Source of the DNA: a virus
Length of the DNA: 43,004 nt
IMG/VR virus record: IMGVR_UViG_3300006919_000111
Coordinates: 1 to 43,004 of that record
Direction: 5' to 3' (one strand)
Under the pieces are notes generated by a model. The model was given only the letters and a program-made list of their open reading frames with translations. It did not search any database and had not been told where the DNA came from. The number at the start of each line of letters is the position of its first letter. The first letter of the stretch is position 1. Shown in pieces: positions 1 through 15,265 of this stretch. A program made the position numbers and the translations under genes.

Positions 1-2184
1 CCAATCAGTTCCAAACTTTGCTTCTCCCGTAACCGGGATTCGTATTTCGTAGTATTCACCTGCAAGTGTCATTGCAGAGACGACAGCATCTTCTGCAAAG
101 GTGAGGACTTCTTCATCATCCTCCGCAGAAACAAGTGCCTGAAGTTCATCATGTACATGAAGAACTTGTTTGATGTCATTCTCATACCCTGCATCGTACG
201 CCTTCTGCGTAAAGAGAACGGTTGCTCTCTTCATTACAAGTGCAGCAGCAGACTGAAGAACAACATTGAGTGCAGCATGGGGGGACCGAGGGTACAAAGG
301 TCTACCGTCAAGTCCGCGCAAGTATCCGACATCCTTTAAGGTCTTCTTACACTTATTGATCAGTTTCTTGAGAGCAGGAATAGCCTTGAAGAATCCATTA
401 AGTAGCTGCTTTCCAACTGCTACGGGCTGACCAACAATCCCTGCAATCCGATCAGGACCACCACCGTAAATGGTTGCGTAGATAAGAGTCTTGGCGATGT
501 CTCTTGAGTCGGGCTGCTCTAAGAGCCAAGGAACTACCTTACCTGCCTTGTCTCTGTTGTAGGTATGCACATCCCCTTCAAGGACAAGAGTGCGATACAC
601 CCCTCCGTCGTAAGGGAACAGGAAGTGAGCAAGCATCCTTAGTTCTATCTGAGCTAAGTCAGCACCCATCAAGAAGGTTCCCTCAGGAGCGAAGAAACAC
701 TCACGCATCTCTTTTCCAAAAGGCTTACGAGGGGAAGTGACTTGAGCTAGGTTCGGTTTGCTATGTGTACATCTACCTGAGACTGCTCCATTGTGATCAA
801 TCCTTGGAAACATCCTGCCAGTAACTTTGTCCACCATACCTAGCCAAGAGTTCTCTCCTAGAGAGAGCATCCCTTGACGCTTCTGAAGCATGGAGTATTC
901 CATGAACTTCTTGGCAATGGGGAACTCATGTTCGATGCTTTCCAGGATCTTTTCAGTGAGTTCTGGCTTACCAGATGGAGTGAACTTCTTTGGCTTCCAT
1001 CCTATTGACTTCAGATGTTCGGCCTGTTGATCAGAGGAACCAGGGTTGAACATGATTGTCTTAGTCTTCATCGGACCAGCCGACAGATACTTCCTAAACT
1101 TGTAAGGGCAGTCCTTCTTCCTTTCGTACTTGTGCTTTACCCCTGTGTTCCCTTCCACAAACCACCAGTATTCGGGAGCCTTCATCGTGACAATCTTAGG
1201 AGGAACCTCATCTCGTAGTTCCTTAGCTAACTTGTCCTGAGCTAGTCCAATCTTGGATGCAAGCTTGACTGCTTTCGATGTGTCAAACGGAACTCCATTC
1301 TTCATCTGAAGACGCAGAGCATCAGCAAATCGCTGTTCATCCACCAATGAATCAAAGTCAAACCCTACTCTCGTAGCTTCGATAATCAGAAAGCGGAACA
1401 GTTCCTGAAGGACCACGACATCCTGATAACAGTACATCACCATGTCAGTTGACAGGTGACTAAACTCGGGGGCATCTTTCTTATGTATACCTAATCGGTA
1501 TCCCCATGCCTTGAGCGAGTAAGAACCAACAAGCTCTCCAGGAATGCAGTCAGGAGATACCTTCCGCATCCTGGCATCTGACTCTTTAAGCTTCCATTCA
1601 GGGAATAGAATCTTAGAAAGAATCAGAGTGTCAATGATGTCTGGACGGTCTGGATCTACACAGTAAGGGAGACTACTTAACTGTCCTTTGCTGTGCTTCT
1701 GCAACACAGGGTAATCAAACCCAATGAAGTTATGCCCGACATAAATGGAAGGCTTCTTTCTTTTCAGATGAGGGGCATCATCAGCGAACTTAAAAGTCGG
1801 GACACTCTGATCAGTTCCTGTCGCATAAGCTACTTCAAAGTCTGTGGGGGCAAACAGCTTGGCAGCTTCTTTGTCCTTTAGTGCAAGAATGAACTTTGTG
1901 TTGTCATTCTTTTCCTGTTTGGTGTTGTCTGGACGGAAGATGTGAACCAGTGACCAGCTACCTGTTGCTTGTTTATGCGAAGCATCAAACCAATCAGTGT
2001 ATTCAGTCACTCCAGGTACGAACCCACCACGAAGGACTGAACAATGAAGTTCAGTCCCTTCTAGATCGGAAGTCTCCACATCCATGAAGACCATACGCTT
2101 ACTGTTGCCGTAGTAAAGCAGAGGCCAACCAACTTTGAAGTTGTCCTTATGGATCTCTTTGTGTTCAGTCAGATTGTGATTCAC
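1..2184 (-). CDS. T7-like family A DNA polymerase (3' end lies across the window junction)
   Basis: Replicative DNA polymerase with proofreading exonuclease, the counterpart of T7 gp5. An N-terminal exonuclease motif (MDVET, D35 and E37) is followed by the polymerase domain: motif A GADLAQIELR (D509), motif B with DIAKTLIYATIYGGG, and motif C HDEL (D679). I chose a GTG start at 2184 because AGGAGG lies six bases upstream and the frame is open from there; it overlaps the end of the 2165-2374 gene. The frame runs through position 1. If the ends are joined it continues GTT TAA into 43004-42999, giving 729 aa (T7 gp5 has 704). It lies between the small HTH/unknown genes and the exonuclease, as in T7. 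Function is certain from motifs; the start is well supported; circular continuation is inferred from the perfect frame match. Confidence 0.95.
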   Translation of the reverse strand, partial: MNHNLTEHKEIHKDNFKVGWPLLYYGNSKRMVFMDVETSDLEGTELHCSVLRGGFVPGVTEYTDWFDASHKQATGSWSLVHIFRPDNTKQEKNDNTKFILALKDKEAAKLFAPTDFEVAYATGTDQSVPTFKFADDAPHLKRKKPSIYVGHNFIGFDYPVLQKHSKGQLSSLPYCVDPDRPDIIDTLILSKILFPEWKLKESDARMRKVSPDCIPGELVGSYSLKAWGYRLGIHKKDAPEFSHLSTDMVMYCYQDVVVLQELFRFLIIEATRVGFDFDSLVDEQRFADALRLQMKNGVPFDTSKAVKLASKIGLAQDKLAKELRDEVPPKIVTMKAPEYWWFVEGNTGVKHKYERKKDCPYKFRKYLSAGPMKTKTIMFNPGSSDQQAEHLKSIGWKPKKFTPSGKPELTEKILESIEHEFPIAKKFMEYSMLQKRQGMLSLGENSWLGMVDKVTGRMFPRIDHNGAVSGRCTHSKPNLAQVTSPRKPFGKEMRECFFAPEGTFLMGADLAQIELRMLAHFLFPYDGGVYRTLVLEGDVHTYNRDKAGKVVPWLLEQPDSRDIAKTLIYATIYGGGPDRIAGIVGQPVAVGKQLLNGFFKAIPALKKLINKCKKTLKDVGYLRGLDGRPLYPRSPHAALNVVLQSAAALVMKRATVLFTQKAYDAGYENDIKQVLHVHDELQALVSAEDDEEVLTFAEDAVVSAMTLAGEYYEIRIPVTGEAKFGTDW

Positions 2185-2374
2185 TCTTTTCCTCCTGCCG
2201 AAGCATAGCTTGAGCCAGCTCCAGAGTGATGTCATGCAGCTCGTAAGGGGTAACATTATGGACTCTCGATGCAAGCAGCTTGAGTGCTGCAATGTCCTCA
2301 CCGTTAGTGAGTAAGTGGATTACCTCGTCTCTCCAGAACAAGGGATTGGTTTCTTCGGTTTCAGTTTGCGTCAT
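2165..2374 (-). CDS. small acidic protein of unknown function
   Basis: A 69-aa protein rich in Glu and Leu, mostly helical in appearance, with no motif I recognise. Its ATG overlaps the stop of the upstream HTH gene (ATGA), with GAGGAAG just upstream as ribosome binding site. Its 3' end overlaps the GTG start of the DNA polymerase by about 20 bases, so the three genes look translationally coupled. Position between primase-helicase and DNA polymerase is where T7 carries small accessory genes (4.3 to 4.7). Function unknown. Confidence 0.75.
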   Translation of the reverse strand: MTQTETEETNPLFWRDEVIHLLTNGEDIAALKLLASRVHNVTPYELHDITLELAQAMLRQEEKSESQSD

Positions 2375-2613
2375 TCGACTTCCTCTAACATGGTTTCAAG
2401 ATCAACTCCAAACTCCAGCATGAAGTCTAGAAGGTAGGTCAGGTTCAAGGCTCTCTCCCCTGACTCAATGGCACTGCACATGGCAGGTGGTTGTCCGAGT
2501 CTCCGAGAAACCTCAGCACAGCTAAGTCCTTCACTCTCTCGAATGAAGATCATCTGCCTGATGATCCTCAACTCATACATACGCTTTCTTTCAATGGGCT
2601 TTCCAGTTCGCAT
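2371..2613 (-). CDS. small XRE-type helix-turn-helix protein
   Basis: 80 aa. Residues about 15-75 fit an XRE/Cro-type helix-turn-helix: a pattern of R..EGLSCAEVSRRLGQPP, then SAIESGER, then LLDFMLEFGVDLE. This is the usual fold of DNA-binding repressors, but here it sits inside a replication operon rather than next to an integrase or divergent promoter. The start overlaps the stop of the primase-helicase (TAATG), with GAGGATGAC as ribosome binding site. It may regulate phage or host transcription, or act as a small accessory protein; the DNA target is unknown. Fold call is moderately sure, role unknown. Confidence 0.75.
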   Translation of the reverse strand: MRTGKPIERKRMYELRIIRQMIFIRESEGLSCAEVSRRLGQPPAMCSAIESGERALNLTYLLDFMLEFGVDLETMLEEVE

Positions 2614-4247
2614 TAGAAGTCATCCTCCTTAGATGATGTGGGTTGGAACTTGTGTTCCTTGTCAGGTGGTGGAGCAGCAGGGATGAAGCGCATCTTTTCC
2701 TTAACGAACTCAAGGTATGCCATGATCCCTGTCTCTCCGCTAAATCGGTTCTTGAGGCAGCGCACTGTCACAAGGTTCTTCTGAGTTGTACTTTGTTGGT
2801 CCCTCTCCAGTGCTATCACAATGTTAGACAGTGCAGCAATCTGAGTTGAACCACGGAGCAGTGACAGACTCAATCGACCTCCCTCTTCCAGTGATGTCTT
2901 GCCTCCTTCGGGCCGCCTAGCGTGACACACTGCAATCAGGGCGATGTTCAATCTACCGACAGCCTGTCGGAGCTTGGTCATCACTGCATCAATCCTTCGT
3001 CTCTCGTCTCCCTGGTCTGCCTTCTCTGAAAGCATGAGAGTGATGTGGTCCAGGAAGATGTACTTGTATCCAGCAGCAGCTAGGTAAGTGATCTTAGATA
3101 GCAGGTGTTCAGCATGGACAGAACCGAAGTGATCGTAGAACACCAGCCTCTCGTCCTCAAAGACCTCATCAAAGGCTGACTTAAAGTCTTTGTCACTGAG
3201 AGTGTTCTTCAAGTGCAGTGGTTTCATGGTGTGGATTCCCATGAATGCTAAAGCTGACTCTCGTAGAGATTCTTCCAAGGCAATGTAAGCAACCTTGTGT
3301 TGCCTACTCAAGTGGTAAGCAATCTCTCGCATCAGTGTGGACTTGCCAACACCAGTACCAGCAGTGAGCATGACCAGTTCACCTAGCCGGATGCCGTGAG
3401 TAACCTCATTGAATGCTTCCCAAGGGTATTCAACTGCATCTGCTGACGCTTCCTCAGCAGTGAGTGCATCCCAAATCAGATCAGTGCTTGCGATGTCATC
3501 AGGTCGGTGACTTCGTGCATTCCAGAATGCTGCCATGACTGCATCTGTCTTGCCCTCCATCAACATCTCATTGACATCAGCACCAGACAGGTCAGCAATG
3601 AATGCCTTGCCAGGAGTCAACAGGTCAGCACATTCCTTAGCTGCTTTGCGTCCAGGTTCGTCGTTGTCAAACATGAACACGACTTCCTCAAACGCTTCAA
3701 GGAACTCTAAGTTGTCCCTCACTGCTTTAGCAGCACCACTTGCTCCTGTTGGGATGCCGACAACAGGCCACTTGTTGTGCATGATCTGAGCCATGCTCAG
3801 TGTGTCGATCTCTCCCTCACATACCGTGACTCTCTTCCCTCCCTTGAATAGCTGCTGCCCATAGAGGCCGATGCCTTTCCATGTACCTCTGGTGGTGAAG
3901 TTCTTGTTGGCATCTCTGAGCTTCTGTCCAGCGATCTCACCACCCTTGAAGTAAGTAGCTACTTGTACCCCTTGGTACACACCGTACTTGTACCTCTTAC
4001 ATACTTCATCGTAGATGCCTCTAGCAGGGAGATCTACGACATCAATCTCATTGAGTGGGATCAGATTGCTGTTCTTGGGAACTTGAGTGTAGGCTTCGAC
4101 GGCTTGGCCGTTCGATGTCAATGCATTACATGAGAAGCAATAGGTATGGCCATCGGTGTAAAGACTGTTTGCATCAGAACTGCCGCAGGATTCACAAGGC
4201 AGATGCTTTACAAAGCTTGAGCCTTCGTGATCTTGATTATCGTGCAT
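2613..4247 (-). CDS. T7 gp4-like bifunctional primase-helicase
   Basis: Synthesises primers and unwinds DNA at the fork. From the N-terminus: a zinc-binding domain with C18, C21, C37 and C40; a TOPRIM primase core with the acidic motifs CEGEID and FDNDEPG; and a RecA-like hexameric helicase domain with Walker A GTGVGKST (K302) and Walker B IFLDHI. At 544 aa it is close to T7 gp4A (566). The ATG has GGAGGGACAACC before it and overlaps the end of the RusA-like gene by 40 bases. The zinc domain is present, so full-length primase activity is expected. Whether a shorter helicase-only form is made from an internal start, as in T7, cannot be told here. Confidence 0.96.
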   Translation of the reverse strand: MHDNQDHEGSSFVKHLPCESCGSSDANSLYTDGHTYCFSCNALTSNGQAVEAYTQVPKNSNLIPLNEIDVVDLPARGIYDEVCKRYKYGVYQGVQVATYFKGGEIAGQKLRDANKNFTTRGTWKGIGLYGQQLFKGGKRVTVCEGEIDTLSMAQIMHNKWPVVGIPTGASGAAKAVRDNLEFLEAFEEVVFMFDNDEPGRKAAKECADLLTPGKAFIADLSGADVNEMLMEGKTDAVMAAFWNARSHRPDDIASTDLIWDALTAEEASADAVEYPWEAFNEVTHGIRLGELVMLTAGTGVGKSTLMREIAYHLSRQHKVAYIALEESLRESALAFMGIHTMKPLHLKNTLSDKDFKSAFDEVFEDERLVFYDHFGSVHAEHLLSKITYLAAAGYKYIFLDHITLMLSEKADQGDERRRIDAVMTKLRQAVGRLNIALIAVCHARRPEGGKTSLEEGGRLSLSLLRGSTQIAALSNIVIALERDQQSTTQKNLVTVRCLKNRFSGETGIMAYLEFVKEKMRFIPAAPPPDKEHKFQPTSSKEDDF

Positions 4248-5270: not shown

Positions 5271-7634
5271 CTAGTGAAAGAAGTAACGGGCTTTCCGTAC
5301 TTCGTTCGGATCGAGTGATCCGAAAGGTGGAGGGTCAGGGATTGGTCCGAACTGTTCGTTCCATTCCGCAATGTTCCTTTCAAGCTGACTACTGCTAAAG
5401 ATGTCAGCAGCTTCGTTTCTAACTAGCTGCTGAATCTTTGGCAGGTCAGCAGCGTGTGTGCCGTAGCTGTCATGCACCATGCTGAAGTGTGTGATTCCCT
5501 CAGCAGATGCAGAGACAATGGTCCGATGCAACAGAGCAGCGTCAAGGCTATGTGTGTAGTTAGCTGTGACGGATCGCTGTTGCCTTGTCCAATCTACACG
5601 CTTTGTCTCCTCTCGGAAGGAGCAACTCAGCACCTTGCCATACACCCTGGTCTGCACCTGCTTGATGTTGTGGATGTTGTAGTGACAGGTACTAGATGCT
5701 GCGCTTGGCAGGGTCCAAGAAACACCAGATTTTTTCTTGGCTCCGCACTTAGCGACTGCCTTCAGCCACTGCACCCCTTGGTAGATGCGGGGCAGCGTCT
5801 CTTCTAAGGCACTTTCAATGGCCTGTGCCAGCGTCCTAGCTGCTGTCCAGTCTTCGTCCCAAGGGAGAGTGCCGCGTTCAACACGGGCCTCTACAAGCTT
5901 GCTGTAAAGGAGATGAGCTAGGCCATCACTGCTCATGCCGTAGAGCAGGGCCATGGCTGGCTCCTTCATCCATGTTCTGTCCAGCCCTAGCTTCCATCGG
6001 ATCATGGTCCCGTGGTATCCATCAGCCATCAGATACTTGTTAGTTGTTTCAACAAGTAATGAGTACAGGTCTGAGGGTTTGTCTGTATCCACACAGTTCA
6101 CTTTGAGTGCAGTCTCTTCATCCCTCAGTAAGAGGGACCACAGTTGAAACCCATGTGCAGAGCCATCGACAGCACAGGGAACAGACGACACTCCATGGTC
6201 AGTGTATTGAACGAAGTCAATACACCACGCTAGGAACTGCCAAGGAGAATCTGCTTCAGTCCACCACAGATTCTCAAGTGGTGCTTTACCTGTAAGGTAA
6301 ATGAGATCTTCATTTTCACTTGACCATTTGAATCTATCTTCATATGTTTCTTTATCCTTACCATATGTATTAGCACCATGTACTAAGTACATCTCATATG
6401 CTTTACGATCCTTAATAGGTTTAGAAATATCAAACTCTAAGAGAGCTTTACTTAAATCACTACCTTGATTGTTTATGTAGAAAGGTACTGAGTACATCCT
6501 TCCTCTAAAATCTAGTTTGCAAGGAAGGTAGATAGATGGATAAGACTTAAACTCTTCACTGAGTTTAAGAGTCATAGCTGTCTTCAATCTCTTTCTCTTA
6601 TTCTTGTAGTTCTCATTGATGACAACTCTTTTCTTATATGCATACCTTCTGATCTTCTCTTTGTCTTTCTTGTCTTCATCACTCAAGGTGGGAAGAGGCA
6701 AAGGATGGGCAGACTCAATCACTCCATGAGTATCTAGCCTTTTCCAAAGTTCTTGTGCTGTTGCCAGCACTGTCTGATTGATCTTCCATCCTGTCCTTTG
6801 AACAGCATTGATTGCATCGACGGCAAGCTGTGAAGCCTGGAATCGAGATTCTCCTGGTCCCTTAGTAGAAGTTTGAACGGGGAATAGTTCATACCCTCCA
6901 CTGCCTGACTCCAATGAATGAACAACAGGCTCATTCAAAGTTGGGAGATAGAAAGGACGACTGAGTTGGAGGTAGTCATCTGCTTTCTCAATGTACTGAA
7001 TCAAAGATTCGGAGGGTCTGACTAACCTTCGCTTCTTCCCTGATCCTAAGGGTTCGTCGTAGAGTTCAAAGAGTTCACCATCAGTGGCAACTTCAACGAG
7101 TTCAAACAACAACGAACCAAGTCTTGCCTTGTCTGCTTTGTCGATGGTTTGCTTGATAGCAACACCATCGAGGATCTTGTTGAACTGTGCATAGAGTGTG
7201 TTCAACTGCATCTCTCTTGATCTACTCTTGAACATCTTTCGTTCAAGTCTCTTGTAGATGTCAGAGTGATGCGTCTCAATATGTTGGAGCGTTAGCTCAT
7301 GTTCAATGGCTGATGCAATAGCATTGCAGAAACCACTGTAAGGAGTGTCGGATGACACTCTGTTGATTGTCTCCTTGAGAACCAAGGCTGTCACCACTTG
7401 AGATCCAAGTGGAGTTAAGAAGCGTAGACAATCCTTTGCCTTTCCTGGTTTACCTAGCTCTGCCTCTTTCATCCATGACTTGATGACAACATTGACTCTC
7501 TCAAACAGTTGAGCAAGGAGAGTCCTCCCGTATGGGGAATCACTCTCCTTGTTCGCACTGACCAGCTTGCTTTTCATTGACCTGTAACGGTCAACGCTTA
7601 GCTGTCTCATCTTCTCTTCAATGTCGTTAGGCAT
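5271..7634 (-). CDS. T7-like single-subunit RNA polymerase
   Basis: Transcribes the middle and late phage genes from phage promoters. The conserved parts are present: DFRGRMYSVPF before the palm, motif A AVDGS (D490), the fingers motif with R553, K557 and Y565 (KEPAMALLYG), and motif C HDSYGTH (D722), ending in FFH. At 787 aa it is shorter than T7 gp1 (883): the N-terminal part is about 47 residues shorter and the motif A to B stretch about 27 shorter. The ATG at 7634 has no Shine-Dalgarno sequence; an in-frame ATG at 7610 follows GAAGAGAAG and is a possible alternative. The segment 6301-6660 is strikingly AT-rich compared with the rest of the gene. Confidence 0.96.
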   Translation of the reverse strand: MPNDIEEKMRQLSVDRYRSMKSKLVSANKESDSPYGRTLLAQLFERVNVVIKSWMKEAELGKPGKAKDCLRFLTPLGSQVVTALVLKETINRVSSDTPYSGFCNAIASAIEHELTLQHIETHHSDIYKRLERKMFKSRSREMQLNTLYAQFNKILDGVAIKQTIDKADKARLGSLLFELVEVATDGELFELYDEPLGSGKKRRLVRPSESLIQYIEKADDYLQLSRPFYLPTLNEPVVHSLESGSGGYELFPVQTSTKGPGESRFQASQLAVDAINAVQRTGWKINQTVLATAQELWKRLDTHGVIESAHPLPLPTLSDEDKKDKEKIRRYAYKKRVVINENYKNKRKRLKTAMTLKLSEEFKSYPSIYLPCKLDFRGRMYSVPFYINNQGSDLSKALLEFDISKPIKDRKAYEMYLVHGANTYGKDKETYEDRFKWSSENEDLIYLTGKAPLENLWWTEADSPWQFLAWCIDFVQYTDHGVSSVPCAVDGSAHGFQLWSLLLRDEETALKVNCVDTDKPSDLYSLLVETTNKYLMADGYHGTMIRWKLGLDRTWMKEPAMALLYGMSSDGLAHLLYSKLVEARVERGTLPWDEDWTAARTLAQAIESALEETLPRIYQGVQWLKAVAKCGAKKKSGVSWTLPSAASSTCHYNIHNIKQVQTRVYGKVLSCSFREETKRVDWTRQQRSVTANYTHSLDAALLHRTIVSASAEGITHFSMVHDSYGTHAADLPKIQQLVRNEAADIFSSSQLERNIAEWNEQFGPIPDPPPFGSLDPNEVRKARYFFH

Positions 7635-7868: not shown

Positions 7869-8171
7869 TCAGTCATCCACTGGATAGACTTCCCAATAAG
7901 GACCACCAACTGGAGCGAGTCGGTCGTGAATGTCCAAGTACACGGACACCAACGCCTCTCCATTGATGACCTTGAACCGAGCCACTGCTCCTCCGAATGG
8001 AGGGAACGCAATGATCTCAGTTCCTTTAGGCCAGTCATTCATGGGGATGCCTGGAATGAGTTGGGACCATGGACCAGTCCACTGCTCATCTTCTTCCAGT
8101 CTGTGCCTCTCCATCATCCCCGTCTTGGGAGTAGACGGGGACAGAGAGATGTGGTTTGGGTTCTTCTTCAT
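7869..8171 (-). CDS. hypothetical protein, 100 aa
   Basis: A soluble protein with many Pro, Trp and Gly and a probable beta-rich C-terminal half (EIIAFPPFGGAVARFKVING, then VYLDIHDRLAP). I recognise no family. Its ATG overlaps the stop of the acidic 205-aa gene upstream (ATGA), so it belongs to the same translational unit as the ATPase module genes. It could be a further component of that module. Confidence 0.7.
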   Translation of the reverse strand: MKKNPNHISLSPSTPKTGMMERHRLEEDEQWTGPWSQLIPGIPMNDWPKGTEIIAFPPFGGAVARFKVINGEALVSVYLDIHDRLAPVGGPYWEVYPVDD

Positions 8172-8785
8172 GCGAGTTGAATCTTCCAGAGTTCAGCGGG
8201 TTGAGCAGGAGCAGCAGGTTCAACTGCTGCCTCTGCTTGTGGTTGGTTTGACTTCATCGGTGAGTCAAATGGGTTCTTTCCAGAAAGCTGTTCGTCTTTC
8301 ATCTTGTCCTTTGCTTCCAACCAGTGAAGGTAAGCATCGAAGGACAGGTTCACTTGGCACTTAGCTAAGAAGCTTTCATACTTCATGAACAGTCGCAAGA
8401 GTGATGGCGGATCAGGTTCGCTAGAACCGTCTCCCCCACTTGAATCACCACCAGAGTTCTCGGAGGAGTCATTGTCTCCTTGTTCCGAGGAAGCCTCTTC
8501 AGACTCTGCATCTCCAGAACCTTCTTCAGGTTCTTCCGGCGCACTCGTTGCATCTGTTGGGTTCGCGTCCTCTCCATCTGAAGAGTCTTCACCACCTGCT
8601 CCAGCAGTGCTAGTTGCCTCTGGCTGTTGGTCGGTTTCTCCTTGCGGGTCATCTCCTCCACCTTTGCCTTCGTCGAGCAGGAACTTGTTTTCTTCTGCCA
8701 TAGGCACAACTTTCTTGCCCATGCCAGCACCTTCGCCTTTACCTTGTTTTCCACTTTGTCCTCCAGGAATGAGTTGGATTTTCAT
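8168..8785 (-). CDS. very acidic, probably disordered protein beside the MoxR/VWA-like genes
   Basis: 205 aa. Residues about 30-125 are almost only Glu, Asp, Ser, Gly, Pro and Gln (for example SSENSGGDSSGGDGSSEP), which indicates an intrinsically disordered acidic linker. The C-terminal part has a short helical block (LLRLFMKYESFLAKC, AYLHWLEAKDKM) and a Pro/Ala tail. In cobalt and magnesium chelatase D/T subunits an acidic linker joins a head domain to a VWA domain; here the acidic piece is a separate gene next to an AAA+ ATPase and a VWA-like gene, which suggests but does not prove a similar role. The ATG overlaps the stop of the upstream gene. DNA mimicry is an alternative. Confidence 0.75.
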   Translation of the reverse strand: MKIQLIPGGQSGKQGKGEGAGMGKKVVPMAEENKFLLDEGKGGGDDPQGETDQQPEATSTAGAGGEDSSDGEDANPTDATSAPEEPEEGSGDAESEEASSEQGDNDSSENSGGDSSGGDGSSEPDPPSLLRLFMKYESFLAKCQVNLSFDAYLHWLEAKDKMKDEQLSGKNPFDSPMKSNQPQAEAAVEPAAPAQPAELWKIQLA

Positions 8786-9624
8786 TTTGCTTGTTGGGTT
8801 ACGAGATCGTAGTCAGTCTGCAACATCGCGCTCAATAATGCAGCTTGCATCATCAAGGGCTTCGGGTGCAGTGAACCACGACGCTCTAGGTCTTGAGAAG
8901 TGAGGGACAGTTCTGGTGTAATTGGATCCGAGTAAGGATCAAACTCTTCCATCATCTCTGCCATCTCTCCCATGCCATCCTGCATTATCTTGAGCATGGC
9001 ATCAGGTCCATCAATGTCGCTATCGACTCGGAGTCTGCGACAGATCAATCCTTCTTTCTTGCCGTCCACTTCCTTCACTCGGATGAACAGCGACTGAGCA
9101 ACTTCGACAAACCAAAGCAACACATGAAGACAGTGGTCTTCTTCCATTGCTTCACGAAGTTCAGTCTCAGTTTCAAAGGTGTGACCAGCCAGACTACTGA
9201 AGTAGAAAGCAGCTTGGTCGTGAAGGTAGAAGTCAAAGATCATCTCTGCTCTCTTCTCCTTCGTCATCTTCAATGGAGACATCCGTTTAGGAGTCACCAG
9301 TGACTCTCTGAGCAGCACCTTCTGCTCCTTGGACAGTTTGTCCAAGTCATCCTGACTGACTCCGACAGCCCGTAGGACATCATCATCGTCGTGCTTGCCT
9401 TGGTTCTTGCACTCCTCCATATGCAGAGCCAGCATCGTGTTGGCGATCTTCTCTGCATACTTGGACATGAATGGATCAATCATCTCTTCGTCCATCAGAG
9501 TGCGAACGAAGCTATGGTAGTGAGGGAAGGTGACTGGAAAAGTCACAGGAACGAGATCGTCATGCAACTCAAGTGGTTTGAGTTTCATCAGGTGATCTCG
9601 GATAGGTAGTTCAGGGTGGTTCAT
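8782..9624 (-). CDS. hypothetical protein of the ATPase module, 280 aa
   Basis: Mostly helical, acidic protein without a recognised domain. I chose the ATG at 9624 because AAGGAG lies four bases before it; a longer frame up to 9687 lacks a ribosome binding site and crosses a hairpin at 9655-9677. The C-terminal third has a Met- and acid-rich stretch (MLKIMQDGMGEMAEMMEEF) and a region that reads like a helical binding surface. It sits between the VWA-like gene and the acidic-protein gene and overlaps the latter by four bases, so it is likely a partner in the same complex. Confidence 0.75.
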   Translation of the reverse strand: MNHPELPIRDHLMKLKPLELHDDLVPVTFPVTFPHYHSFVRTLMDEEMIDPFMSKYAEKIANTMLALHMEECKNQGKHDDDDVLRAVGVSQDDLDKLSKEQKVLLRESLVTPKRMSPLKMTKEKRAEMIFDFYLHDQAAFYFSSLAGHTFETETELREAMEEDHCLHVLLWFVEVAQSLFIRVKEVDGKKEGLICRRLRVDSDIDGPDAMLKIMQDGMGEMAEMMEEFDPYSDPITPELSLTSQDLERRGSLHPKPLMMQAALLSAMLQTDYDLVTQQAK

Positions 9625-9654
9625 TCTACTCCTTGGTTGTTGCGGGTTGGTGTT

Positions 9655-9677
9655 GGCAGAGTACAAAGCCCTCTGCC
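9655..9677 (-). other. leader hairpin before the 280-aa gene
   Basis: Perfect 7-bp inverted repeat GGCAGAG/CTCTGCC with a 9-base loop, between the stop of the VWA-like gene (9700) and the start at 9624. No U-run follows, so it is more likely an RNA processing or stability element than a terminator. Confidence 0.6.
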
Positions 9678-9699
9678 ATGGCTTCATTCCTGGAGGGAA

Positions 9700-10830
9700 C
9701 TATGCGATGAACCCCTCGACCGACTTGGTTAAGAAGTTCAAAGCATTCTCTTCTGACTGGAAGTCAGGGACGAGGATTGCATTCTCACGATCCAATCCTA
9801 GCTGTTGCATTGTCGCTGCAATGTAGTCAGGTACAGCAGAGACACAGCGCATAGATCCGATGCTTGACTGCCTGTGTCTATTCTCCTGTTTGTGACCTGG
9901 ACCTTTGAGCCTGTCAGCCAACTCTGGTGGACACTCTTCAGGCAAGTGAACCGTACCGATAGCACGGTAGCCTTGTGAAGTGAATGTTTGGCCACTCGCC
10001 ATGACTGCTGCAATCAGGTCAGTGTTCAGGTCTTCGTTAGGCTCCTTCACTTTGCAGAAAGTGCCGTGGAAAGCATTGCGATTGTTCCGATTGGCGAAGC
10101 CTAGCTCTTTAGCTTGGAGTGCGCTCAACTCAGCAGCTTCCGTCACATAGACGGCATACTCACATGAGATGAGTTCAACTCGATAGCCAGCAGCTTCCAG
10201 CTTGTCCACAAGGACACATCCAACTGCACCAGACCAGAACCAGCCTTCTTCTGACCGTCCACCATTGCCACCGAAGTTGGCCACAACGGTCACAGTAGGA
10301 TCAAGCTTGCCGATCCGCCTCTTTCTGGCTTCCCATGCAGTATCACACTGTCCGCCATACAGACGGTCGTAACTCAGTTCGTCACCATCATCGAGCCACA
10401 TCCGATGTCGCTCAATGCCTGTCGGTTGCCAGTTCTCAGAGAGATCCATCAACCGTAGGTTGTACTCACGGATCTTGTCCCCAAGGATCGGGCTACCTTG
10501 CTTGAGTGCAAGTCGGCAGTCGTTCCACTGCCAATCGCTAGGGGCATCAGGCAGGACGAGAGACGGCTCTCCTCCGCCAACGATGCACCCATGCTCATAG
10601 GCTCTGGTGTTCCACTTTCCTCTCTGCTCAGCCAGCATCTTGCCAACTAGGTCGATGTCAGCGAGTGCGGCAGTGTTCATGTAGACGGCAGTAGACAGCC
10701 CGTGATTCTTCCTACGGGTTGCACCATTCCTTACATAGGAATCGCACCATATCGACCGCCATTCATACTCTCCTGTTGGATCAGCTAGTCGGCTGTCCCA
10801 TAACAGGTCAAGTTCAATCTCTTGCGTCAT
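9700..10830 (-). CDS. degenerate VWA-like protein, predicted partner of the AAA+ ATPase
   Basis: 376 aa. The middle (about residues 180-235) has a Rossmann-type pattern, VTVVANFGGNGGRS then a helix, then LEAAGYRVELI, which resembles the first strand, MIDAS loop, helix and second strand of a von Willebrand A domain. The canonical metal motif DxSxS is not present: the loop reads NFGGN instead. Phage and actinobacterial proteins of this kind commonly sit next to MoxR-type ATPases, which is also the case here. The N-terminal part is rich in Trp, Asp and Gly and not recognised. ATG at 10830 follows GGAGG with good spacing. VWA assignment is inference from pattern and context. Confidence 0.65.
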   Translation of the reverse strand: MTQEIELDLLWDSRLADPTGEYEWRSIWCDSYVRNGATRRKNHGLSTAVYMNTAALADIDLVGKMLAEQRGKWNTRAYEHGCIVGGGEPSLVLPDAPSDWQWNDCRLALKQGSPILGDKIREYNLRLMDLSENWQPTGIERHRMWLDDGDELSYDRLYGGQCDTAWEARKRRIGKLDPTVTVVANFGGNGGRSEEGWFWSGAVGCVLVDKLEAAGYRVELISCEYAVYVTEAAELSALQAKELGFANRNNRNAFHGTFCKVKEPNEDLNTDLIAAVMASGQTFTSQGYRAIGTVHLPEECPPELADRLKGPGHKQENRHRQSSIGSMRCVSAVPDYIAATMQQLGLDRENAILVPDFQSEENALNFLTKSVEGFIA

Positions 10831-10866
10831 CTTCGTTTCCTCCAGGTTACGAGTTTTGGGTTGTTA

Positions 10867-10908
10867 GCTCCCTTAGAGACTTCGCTAAAGCTATGTCTCT
10901 AAGGGAGC
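10867..10908 (-). other. 14-bp leader hairpin between ATPase and VWA-like genes
   Basis: Perfect 14-bp inverted repeat (10867-10880 with 10895-10908; arm GCTCCCTTAGAGAC) around a 14-base loop. It fills most of the gap between two genes. There is no U-run after the 3' arm in the direction of transcription, so an RNase III-type processing site or mRNA stabiliser is more likely than a terminator. Confidence 0.8.
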
Positions 10909-10919
10909 GTAGCCACTCT

Positions 10920-12467
10920 CTATGCGAGTGCGGCTGTCTTCTCTTCCCTTGGCCAGTCAATCATCAACTGCTCAACGCAGTCCTTGACCGTCCACTTCAG
11001 AGCGATTCGGAACTGGTAAGCATCTCGCAGGGACTGAGTGTCCACCACTTGACGAATGCCTTTCTCCTTCACATTTTTGCGGATGCGGATCCACTCACTT
11101 CGCAGTTCGCTATCAGGACACAATGCCTGTTCGACTGCTGGTGAGTAGTCCCATTCAATCAGGTTCATCTTGAACCGTCGAAGCGTAGCCTTGTCGAGTT
11201 GGTTTCGACCTACATACATCCGATCTCGCCCGTTGCCAGTGGTGTTTGCACCAGCGATCAGGACGAAGTTTGAGTGACGCTCAGCAAAGGGCTTTTCAAC
11301 CCTGTTCGGCACTGAGATTCGACCACCAGACACTGCGTCGTTAATCACGATCAACACATTCGGATCTGCTGCATCCATCTCATCCAACAGGAACACTCCA
11401 CCATTCTCGTAGAGACGGATGAAGTCAGACTGAGCGTATTCAAACTTGCCACCTTCTCCCGAAGGGATGAGACGGCCAAGCAACTGCCCCTCAGACATTC
11501 CCGCTGAGCATGAGATCGAAGCGTAGTCACGGTCAAGGGCTTTCGCTACTTGAGCAGCAGCATGAGTTTTACCTGAGCCTGATGGACCGACCAGGAATGC
11601 GTTTGGCATCACCTGGACTCGATTCAACAACTCAGTGAACTTCTCATGCACCAGCCCCACAGGAACTTCCGTTCCTTGGGGAGTCACGACAGTGATCTTC
11701 TTAGCTCCAGCTTCATCCAGAGCCTTTTCAACTTGCTCAGCAACAACAGCAGGCAACTTCGTTGCAACTGCCTCATCGACTGCTGAGCCTGACCACTTGT
11801 CCACCAGGATTTTGACTTGCGTCTCATCCACTCCATCCTTGGACCGATGCTTGCGGATTGCTTCGGCAACTTGCTTGCCAAACATTCCATGCTGCTGCTC
11901 AAGGATGTCCAGAGCCTGTGATGCGTCCTCATCAGCGTCCTGCTTGACAGTCGGCTTCTGAATCAGCGTCTTCAAGTCATCCATGATCGGTGCTTTGAAG
12001 TCTGCACCTTCTCCTTTGGAAATTGGCCAAGGCCAGTCACCGTAGTTGGTGATTCGACTCGCCCAAACATCTCCGCTGGAAAGACCTTGCTTGACTTCTT
12101 GGAAGTCGATGTTTCCAACATTGGTTTTCTTGACGAAGATCCCTTGATGGTTCAAGACCTTGCGAGCAAGGTACTTTTGAGTTCGGTTACTGCCAGCAAT
12201 GGCCACACGGCCACTGTCAGCATCTCCGTCCACATTGGAAACTCCAAAAGTTGGATGATTCCAAGGTGCTACTCGACTGCTGTGTTCGACGACAATCGTA
12301 GAACCGACAAAGGGCTTGCCGAAAACTGGATTGTCAGAGTGGACACTCTCAGCCATTGCAAAGTCTTGCGCTGACTTGAGATCCTTGAACTGTGCTTGCC
12401 GAGCAGGGATGAAGTACATCCTCTCGGGATTTTCATTGTCCTGCACATGGCGAAGGACTGCATACAT
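10920..12467 (-). CDS. MoxR/CobS-type AAA+ ATPase
   Basis: 515 aa. The C-terminal half is an AAA+ module: Walker A GPSGSGKTH (K300), a pore/substrate loop region SAGMSEGQLLGRLIPSGE typical of the MoxR/CobS/dynein-related clade, Walker B VFLLDEMD (D362, E363), a sensor 1 region ending in GANTTGNG, and Arg residues in the DKATLRRF segment that can serve as the arginine finger. The N-terminal 200 residues are of unknown type. MoxR ATPases work as chaperone-like remodellers with VWA proteins, and CobS inserts cobalt with the VWA protein CobT; a VWA-like gene follows directly. The ATG follows a Shine-Dalgarno sequence held in a hairpin loop. ATPase call sure, substrate unknown. Confidence 0.9.
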   Translation of the reverse strand: MYAVLRHVQDNENPERMYFIPARQAQFKDLKSAQDFAMAESVHSDNPVFGKPFVGSTIVVEHSSRVAPWNHPTFGVSNVDGDADSGRVAIAGSNRTQKYLARKVLNHQGIFVKKTNVGNIDFQEVKQGLSSGDVWASRITNYGDWPWPISKGEGADFKAPIMDDLKTLIQKPTVKQDADEDASQALDILEQQHGMFGKQVAEAIRKHRSKDGVDETQVKILVDKWSGSAVDEAVATKLPAVVAEQVEKALDEAGAKKITVVTPQGTEVPVGLVHEKFTELLNRVQVMPNAFLVGPSGSGKTHAAAQVAKALDRDYASISCSAGMSEGQLLGRLIPSGEGGKFEYAQSDFIRLYENGGVFLLDEMDAADPNVLIVINDAVSGGRISVPNRVEKPFAERHSNFVLIAGANTTGNGRDRMYVGRNQLDKATLRRFKMNLIEWDYSPAVEQALCPDSELRSEWIRIRKNVKEKGIRQVVDTQSLRDAYQFRIALKWTVKDCVEQLMIDWPREEKTAALA

Positions 12468-14946: not shown

Positions 14947-14981
14947 AAAAAACAGCTACCCCTATTTCTAGGAGTAGCTGT
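14947..14981 (-). terminator. Rho-independent terminator before the early promoter
   Basis: A 13-bp stem (ACAGCTACTCCTA with its complement, one G-U pair), a GAAA tetraloop and a following run of T on the minus strand. It would isolate late transcription from the early promoter. Confidence 0.88.
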
Positions 14982-15232
14982 CTATGCATCGTTTCTGGAG
15001 GTAGAACCTGACTCTCTGAGAGAGGAGCAACTCTTAAACCCACTTATGAGTCACTCTTGGCCTGCTGCTTCCATTATTAGACAGCAGACGAATAGTTCTA
15101 GTATTTACATACTAAATATTTACTAAGAAGTATTGATAACCAATGTCTTAGCTAAAAGTCTTTTTAACAATCTCTTCTCTAATGGATCATCAAAGAATCT
15201 TCTAAAACCCTGTTAGATAGATACTAAGTAAA

Positions 15233-15265
15233 GATTGAGATATGTGTCAAGCACATATCTCAATC
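15233..15265 (-). terminator. terminator after the large terminase gene
   Basis: Perfect 14-bp stem GATTGAGATATGTG with its complement, five-base loop, then TTTACTT on the minus strand, 18 bases after the terminase stop. The U-run is short, so part of its role may be 3'-end protection. Confidence 0.75.

Follow-up and report, generated by a model that had tools for sequence, protein, structure and literature searches.

AAA+ ATPases of the MoxR kind can act together with partner proteins of the von Willebrand factor A (VWA) type, and among the closest described systems is NorQ-NorD, which inserts FeB into nitric oxide reductase and whose mechanism has been described (PMC13036017, PMC9976466). 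Viral pairs of MoxR and VWA proteins are already known as well (PMC4124505, PMC7824862). Here we describe a further pair, encoded in a viral DNA of 43,004 nucleotides (positions 1 to 43,004 of the IMG/VR record IMGVR_UViG_3300006919_000111; hereafter the window), where the gene of a MoxR-type ATPase is followed by those of four proteins, P2 to P5, ahead of a T7-type RNA polymerase gene. The ATPase and P2, a probable member of the Pfam family DUF7192, represent a conserved two-gene module found in many unrelated bacterial viruses, whose obligate pairing is shown by the gene neighbourhoods in these genomes. The pair appears to be a virus-enriched variant of the MoxR-VWA kind that lacks the metal ion-dependent adhesion site (MIDAS), and its function is undescribed in the literature that we searched.

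The ATPase and its pairing with DUF7192

The ATPase matches AAA_5 (2e-18, 67 bits with a cut-off of 22) and phrog_249 (1.6e-51). It contains a Walker A motif at residues 294-301 including K300, Walker B residues D362/E363, the sensor-1 residue N408 and two arginines, R421 and R431; G294 and all of the single residues named here are identical in all 17 distant members that were aligned. The earlier note on this DNA, which was made without database searches, had assigned the protein to the MoxR/CobS clade of AAA+ ATPases and named K300 and D362/E363, and both profile matches and relatives agree with this assignment. Judged by these motifs, it is a MoxR-type (clade 7) AAA+ ATPase with intact Walker A, Walker B, sensor 1 and arginine finger. 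Its solved relatives in a profile search are midasin, CbbQ, CobS and NorQ, and the expected place of the helix-2 insert hairpin is occupied by GRLIPSGEGGKFEY, which, judged from sequence alone, resembles the GRxL(L/I)xxxxT of NorQ (PMC13036017). Compared with the CobS equivalog the protein scores 21.2 bits, the cut-off being 558.55; by this measure the window ATPase is not CobS.

A DUF7192 gene is located at most two genes away from the ATPase gene in 55 of the 56 clade members included in our ATPase tree, and the sole member lacking a partner nearby (L029) is a cut contig that starts within the ATPase gene. Apart from this cut contig, the gene-neighbourhood comparison suggested in the earlier note found the ATPase always with a DUF7192 gene; the outcome that the note had named as contradicting it, related phages with the ATPase and none of its neighbours, did not occur. 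The tree shows a single split, supported by 100/99, between ATPases partnered by DUF7192 (56) and ATPases partnered by CobT (48), where "CobT" denotes loci without DUF7192 and CobT-like proteins were confirmed in 31 cases. Pfam DUF7192 was detected in 32 of 32 clade genomes, in none of 13 CobS-type phages and in none of 14 cellular control genomes. One scan of 84,980 species genomes returned four loci, all of them on contigs of bacterial metagenome-assembled genomes (MAGs) and all with the two genes adjoining. The hosts of reference phages carrying the pair are Staphylococcus, Listeria, Mycobacterium, Acinetobacter, Enterococcus and Tunturiibacter; the pair is also present in crAss-like phages, and 236 Staphylococcus records of the phage-K group contain this ATPase. 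The label "porphyrin biosynthesis" attached to phrog_249 lumps true CobS proteins, which are partnered by CobT, with the ATPases partnered by DUF7192.

Some of the related loci deviate from the simple arrangement or share additional genes. Mycobacterium phage Fezzik (W05) encodes two DUF7192 proteins (65856-66674 and 69526-70368), only one of them beside the ATPase. A related open reading frame (ORF) is found two genes upstream of the DUF7192 gene at three loci (L032:4006-4662, L047:2540-3163 and L050:1-570); in the L032 copy the sequence is HELLHAVDDCRDGH, suggestive of a SprT-type metallopeptidase motif, and the L047 copy has no Pfam match. One sub-lineage has in common a protein of 253-263 aa encoded downstream of the pair (L007:8841-9626, L008:8850-9629, L009:9032-9793, L013:9062-9853). 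On the bacterial MAG contig L115, a frame of 851 aa (861-3413) comprises an ATPase domain and extra sequence and is followed by a weak DUF7192 match.

Fold of the partner protein and loss of its metal site

With P2 alone as query, phmmer recovered from other phages the proteins encoded downstream of their ATPase genes (3e-14 to 4e-4). P2 itself matches Pfam DUF7192 (PF23822) at 4.7e-5, with a score of 23.3 and a cut-off of 27, and all 16 of its aligned relatives match this family. Like its relatives, the window P2 probably belongs to DUF7192, as a divergent member. Pfam assigns no function to the family, and our literature search found no paper naming it; its predicted VWA-like fold and its pairing with the ATPase emerge from the present analysis.

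Fold searches were performed because the DUF7192 sequence profile yielded no VWA match in the PDB. The AlphaFold model of the window P2 has a confident core, with beta1 at residues 179-185, alpha1 at 194-213, beta2 at 217-229, beta3 at 252-262 and beta4 at 351-354. When this model was compared with the PDB using Foldseek, NorD VWA chains were on top (E 3.4e-4 to 3.8e-3), namely chain G of the NorQ-NorD complexes 9qhd, 9qh6, 9qh8 and 9qhe. We take chain G to be the NorD VWA, since six chains of each entry are NorQ and the complex is 6:1 (PMC9976466, PMC13036017). A better model was obtained for the relative L012 (predicted local distance difference test 89, predicted template modelling score 0.83), and here, too, four NorD chains came first (E 2.4e-4 to 2.4e-3), followed mostly by other VWA domains. 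Among the viral structures in BFVD, the window model matched DUF7192 proteins first and phage CobT VWA proteins next. DUF7192 proteins are thus predicted to have a VWA-type beta-alpha-beta core, a match that is remote but was reached from two models. A VWA-like core lacking DxSxS had been proposed for P2 before, with the absence of a VWA-like fold as the outcome that would contradict it; the predicted fold is VWA-like in both the window and the L012 model, and fold search and family alignment point the same way.

At the end of its first core strand, the window P2 reads N185-F-G-G-N where VWA proteins have DxSxS. The pattern D.[ST].S is present in only 5 of 59 DUF7192 family members, compared to 31 of 31 phage CobT-like proteins, and at the level of this alignment the family is shown to have lost the MIDAS metal site. 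According to column counts, DUF7192 has instead conserved a Lys (56/58; K262 in the window), an Arg (56/57) and Gly residues. Just ahead of beta1, the models place a strand-helix-strand element at residues 139-173 with the conserved glycines G149 and G160; the finger of NorD (residues 403-448) likewise lies ahead of its MIDAS strand (PMC13036017). NorD MIDAS mutants retain NorQ binding, and target maturation is abolished in them (PMC9976466). As these mutants still bind NorQ, a partner without MIDAS could work the ring and grip its target differently. A fingertip motif, D..[RK], was considered as a feature shared by DUF7192 and CobT; no more than 20 of 59 DUF7192 and 17 of 31 CobT-like proteins have it, and it was not used as evidence.

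The pair is present in widely used Staphylococcus phages, in Listeria phages, in mycobacteriophages and in crAss-like phages, under labels such as "hypothetical" or "porphyrin biosynthesis". Treating the two genes as one constant MoxR-VWA machine that lacks MIDAS would correct this misleading annotation, and the pair offers a defined two-protein system for asking what VWA partners do without a metal site.

The locus and its local genes

The window encodes T7-type replication and virion genes on the minus strand (T7-type RNA polymerase, single-stranded DNA-binding protein, RusA, primase-helicase and terminase), and the cassette is situated between the terminase end and the RNA polymerase gene (Table 1). 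The earlier note had listed four packed genes ahead of the polymerase, and their ORFs, order (ATPase, P2, P3, P4) and strand were all confirmed. The intergenic gaps are 89 nt (ATPase/P2), 12 nt (P2/P3), -4 nt (P3/P4) and -4 nt (P4/P5), and codon bias supports each of P2, P3, P4 and P5 as coding. In T7-like phages the region ahead of the RNA polymerase gene is the early region, as established for T7. Because the RNA polymerase gene follows downstream, we assign the cassette of this T7-like phage to the early region, and its early timing is what we infer from this gene order.

Table 1. Coordinates of the cassette and the adjoining RNA polymerase gene in the window
Feature	Position	Strand	Evidence
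MoxR/CobS-clade AAA+ ATPase, core module gene 1, 515 aa	10920..12467	-	AAA_5, phrog_249, invariant columns, PDB sequence relatives, clade tree
P2, DUF7192 protein, degenerate VWA-like fold (predicted), core module gene 2, 376 aa	9700..10830	-	phmmer, Pfam, model, Foldseek, BFVD, column counts
Candidate pore-inserting finger of P2, residues 139-173	10312..10416	-	Secondary structure in models, conserved columns, NorD position; inference
P3, orphan, 280 aa from likely start M22	8782..9624	-	ORF, codon bias
P4, orphan, 205 aa, acidic/Ser/Gly-rich, probably disordered	8168..8785	-	ORF, composition, codon bias
P5, small fifth ORF, orphan, 100 aa	7869..8171	-	ORF, codon bias
T7-type RNA polymerase, downstream of cassette	5271..7634	-	RNA_pol 8.4e-63; phrog_414 6e-167

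P3 probably starts at M22 (about 9624), behind CAAGGAGTAGA-ATG, which fits the 280 aa given for it previously; the first ATG (9687) would result in 301 aa. It shows a weak match to phrog_20981 (0.004), and no relatives were found in known phages, viral contigs or 45 phage genomes. In P4, the previously described run of about 100 acidic, Ser and Gly residues corresponds to residues 28-127, which include 31 D/E, 17 G and 15 S versus 2 K/R. Related loci contain no relatives of P3, P4 or P5, library scans revealed no match of these three proteins to the VMAP or FtsH third-component families, and no third gene beside the pair is common to more than 4 of 45 loci. Because P3 to P5 lack relatives and no third gene recurs, we read the four genes as a conserved pair plus local genes, and membership of P3 and P4 in the machine is not supported. 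Of the single set of four genes proposed in the earlier note, the part that stands is that ATPase and DUF7192 travel together. The idea that P3 and P4 are parts of a divided CobT, namely its N-terminal half and its acidic linker, was rejected (hhalign probability for P3 0.1%; compositional match between P4 and the linker).

A near-DNA search of known phages with the region gave no matches, and no close relatives of the RNA polymerase were found in viral contigs. The same kind of search with P2 returned a single near-copy contig (L002/L006), which terminates inside P2; together with the empty polymerase search, this made a comparison of P3 and P4 in a sister phage impossible. At the left contig end a DNA polymerase gene (1-2301; 767 aa open) runs off, indicating that the record is cut there. 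Between the terminase and the early genes, the minus strand of positions 14950-15265 carries two long terminator-like hairpins and a 10/12 sigma-70-like promoter, and this is probably a genome-end or early promoter region.

Possible mode of action and comparison with known systems

We consider it likely, with a probability of roughly 0.68, that the pair is an early-acting, ATP-driven remodeller similar to NorQD and RavA-ViaA, in which the VWA-like partner acts as a plug of the ring and holds a target without MIDAS. The ATPase would form a hexameric ring on which one DUF7192 protein might sit with its strand-helix-strand finger in the pore, like NorD on NorQ, and ATP hydrolysis would twist this protein against the bound target. 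Because DUF7192 has lost the MIDAS site that NorD is thought to use, a different part of the protein surface would have to provide the grip, perhaps that surrounding the near-invariant Lys and Arg. As the machine is encoded just ahead of the RNA polymerase gene, it would most likely act early on a host or replication complex and not on the virion. P3 and P4, being local additions in the operon, may be target adaptors. It seems rather improbable that such virus-specific ring remodellers with a Lys/Arg grip dismantle a host complex early in infection and that P3 and P4 contribute a target-binding helical domain and an acidic linker here, together making up a NorD/CobT-like partner in pieces.

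Several points weigh against an early remodeller of this kind. The early timing is deduced from gene order, the main text of the Kayvirus transcriptome papers containing no per-gene statement on the timing of the pair. The fold match is remote, with low Foldseek template modelling scores (0.19-0.32) and modest E-values, and the profile-profile comparison of the P2 family with CobT is weak (E 0.0027, probability 11%). The candidate finger agrees with that of NorD in position and secondary structure only. In addition, the window P2 is divergent at one of the two possible grip residues, having T at column 284, where Arg is found in 56 of 57 proteins. Finally, the Kayvirus ATPase is probably included in a virion proteome list (PMC5618024), which favours a role in assembly.

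A chaperone for the folding, assembly or maturation of head or tail parts has precedents in p618/p892 of Acidianus two-tailed virus (ATV; PMC4124505) and in the MoxR-vWA pair of group 2.2 jumbo phages (PMC7824862). The protein detected in purified particles of phage fRuSau02 by liquid chromatography-tandem mass spectrometry, RS_048 (372 aa; PMC5618024), corresponds in size and gene order to the Kayvirus ATPase (the ATPase coding sequence has 1119 bp). However, its partner RS_047 is absent from the same list, which also holds clear non-virion enzymes such as lysin, ribonucleotide reductase and a sigma factor. Moreover, neither in the window nor in annotated reference phages is the pair close to head or tail genes; it is surrounded by early, replication or unknown genes, its neighbours in the reference phages being DNA, nucleotide or unknown genes. 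Virion assembly is an unlikely role. A narrower version of the early remodeller favoured above, and a tentative possibility, is a machine that would take apart one specific host defence complex, such as a bacterial MoxR-vWA ternary system or a different ring complex. The position ahead of the RNA polymerase, the orphan neighbours and the sporadic spread across unrelated phages would suit counter-defence or host takeover, and bacterial conflict systems include MoxR-vWA modules (PMC7159879); PADLOC gave no strong match for any cassette protein (best 1.6e-4, in the generic AAA region).

The phrog_249 label would suggest auxiliary metabolic genes of the CobS/CobT cobaltochelatase type that raise host cobalamin, and true cobST pairs, proposed to use host CobN, are indeed common in tailed viruses (PMC8651126). 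Several observations speak against this role, which we regard as highly improbable. The ATPase clade is separate from the CobT-partnered ATPases (100/99), the window ATPase is far below the CobS cut-off (21 versus 559 bits), the partner lacks both MIDAS and acidic linker, the acidic stretch belonging to a separate orphan, and CobN was found neither in the window nor in 13 phages. The pair also occurs in phages of S. aureus, which is not known to synthesise cobalamin de novo. The earlier note had seen a likeness to chelatase subunits that join an acidic linker with VWA, and this likeness is not supported, in view of the CobS score, the partner lacking MIDAS and the acidic stretch in a separate protein. 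Of its overall interpretation, we retain the MoxR-type ATPase, its degenerate VWA partner and their early region in a T7-like phage, whereas the four-gene set and the chelatase likeness are unsupported.

Compared with known systems, the pair shares with phage cobST pairs a related ATPase adjoining a VWA-fold partner in many tailed viruses; unlike DUF7192, however, phage CobT-like proteins are mostly 590-760 aa in length, keep DxSxS and often have an acidic linker, and their ATPases belong to another clade. ATV p618/p892 and the jumbo-phage pair likewise combine a viral MoxR ATPase with a VWA cochaperone (PMC4124505, PMC7824862), but they are linked to tail or virion assembly and have a VWA protein that is either large or part of a peptidase fusion, in contrast to the early or replicative context here. 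The VMAP and FtsH vWA-MoxR ternary conflict systems (PMC7159879) have the MoxR-vWA partnership in common with the phage pair, which has no recurrent third gene in 45 loci and so no counterpart of VMAP or FtsH. NorD differs in needing its MIDAS for target maturation and in having a long linker as well as a separate N-terminal domain (PMC9976466, PMC13036017), whereas DUF7192 proteins are short, have lost MIDAS and have no known metal target. Nevertheless, both systems share a clade-7-type AAA+ ATPase with a VWA-fold partner, NorD is the top PDB fold match of DUF7192, and a strand-helix-strand finger, in DUF7192 still a candidate, precedes the first VWA strand in both.

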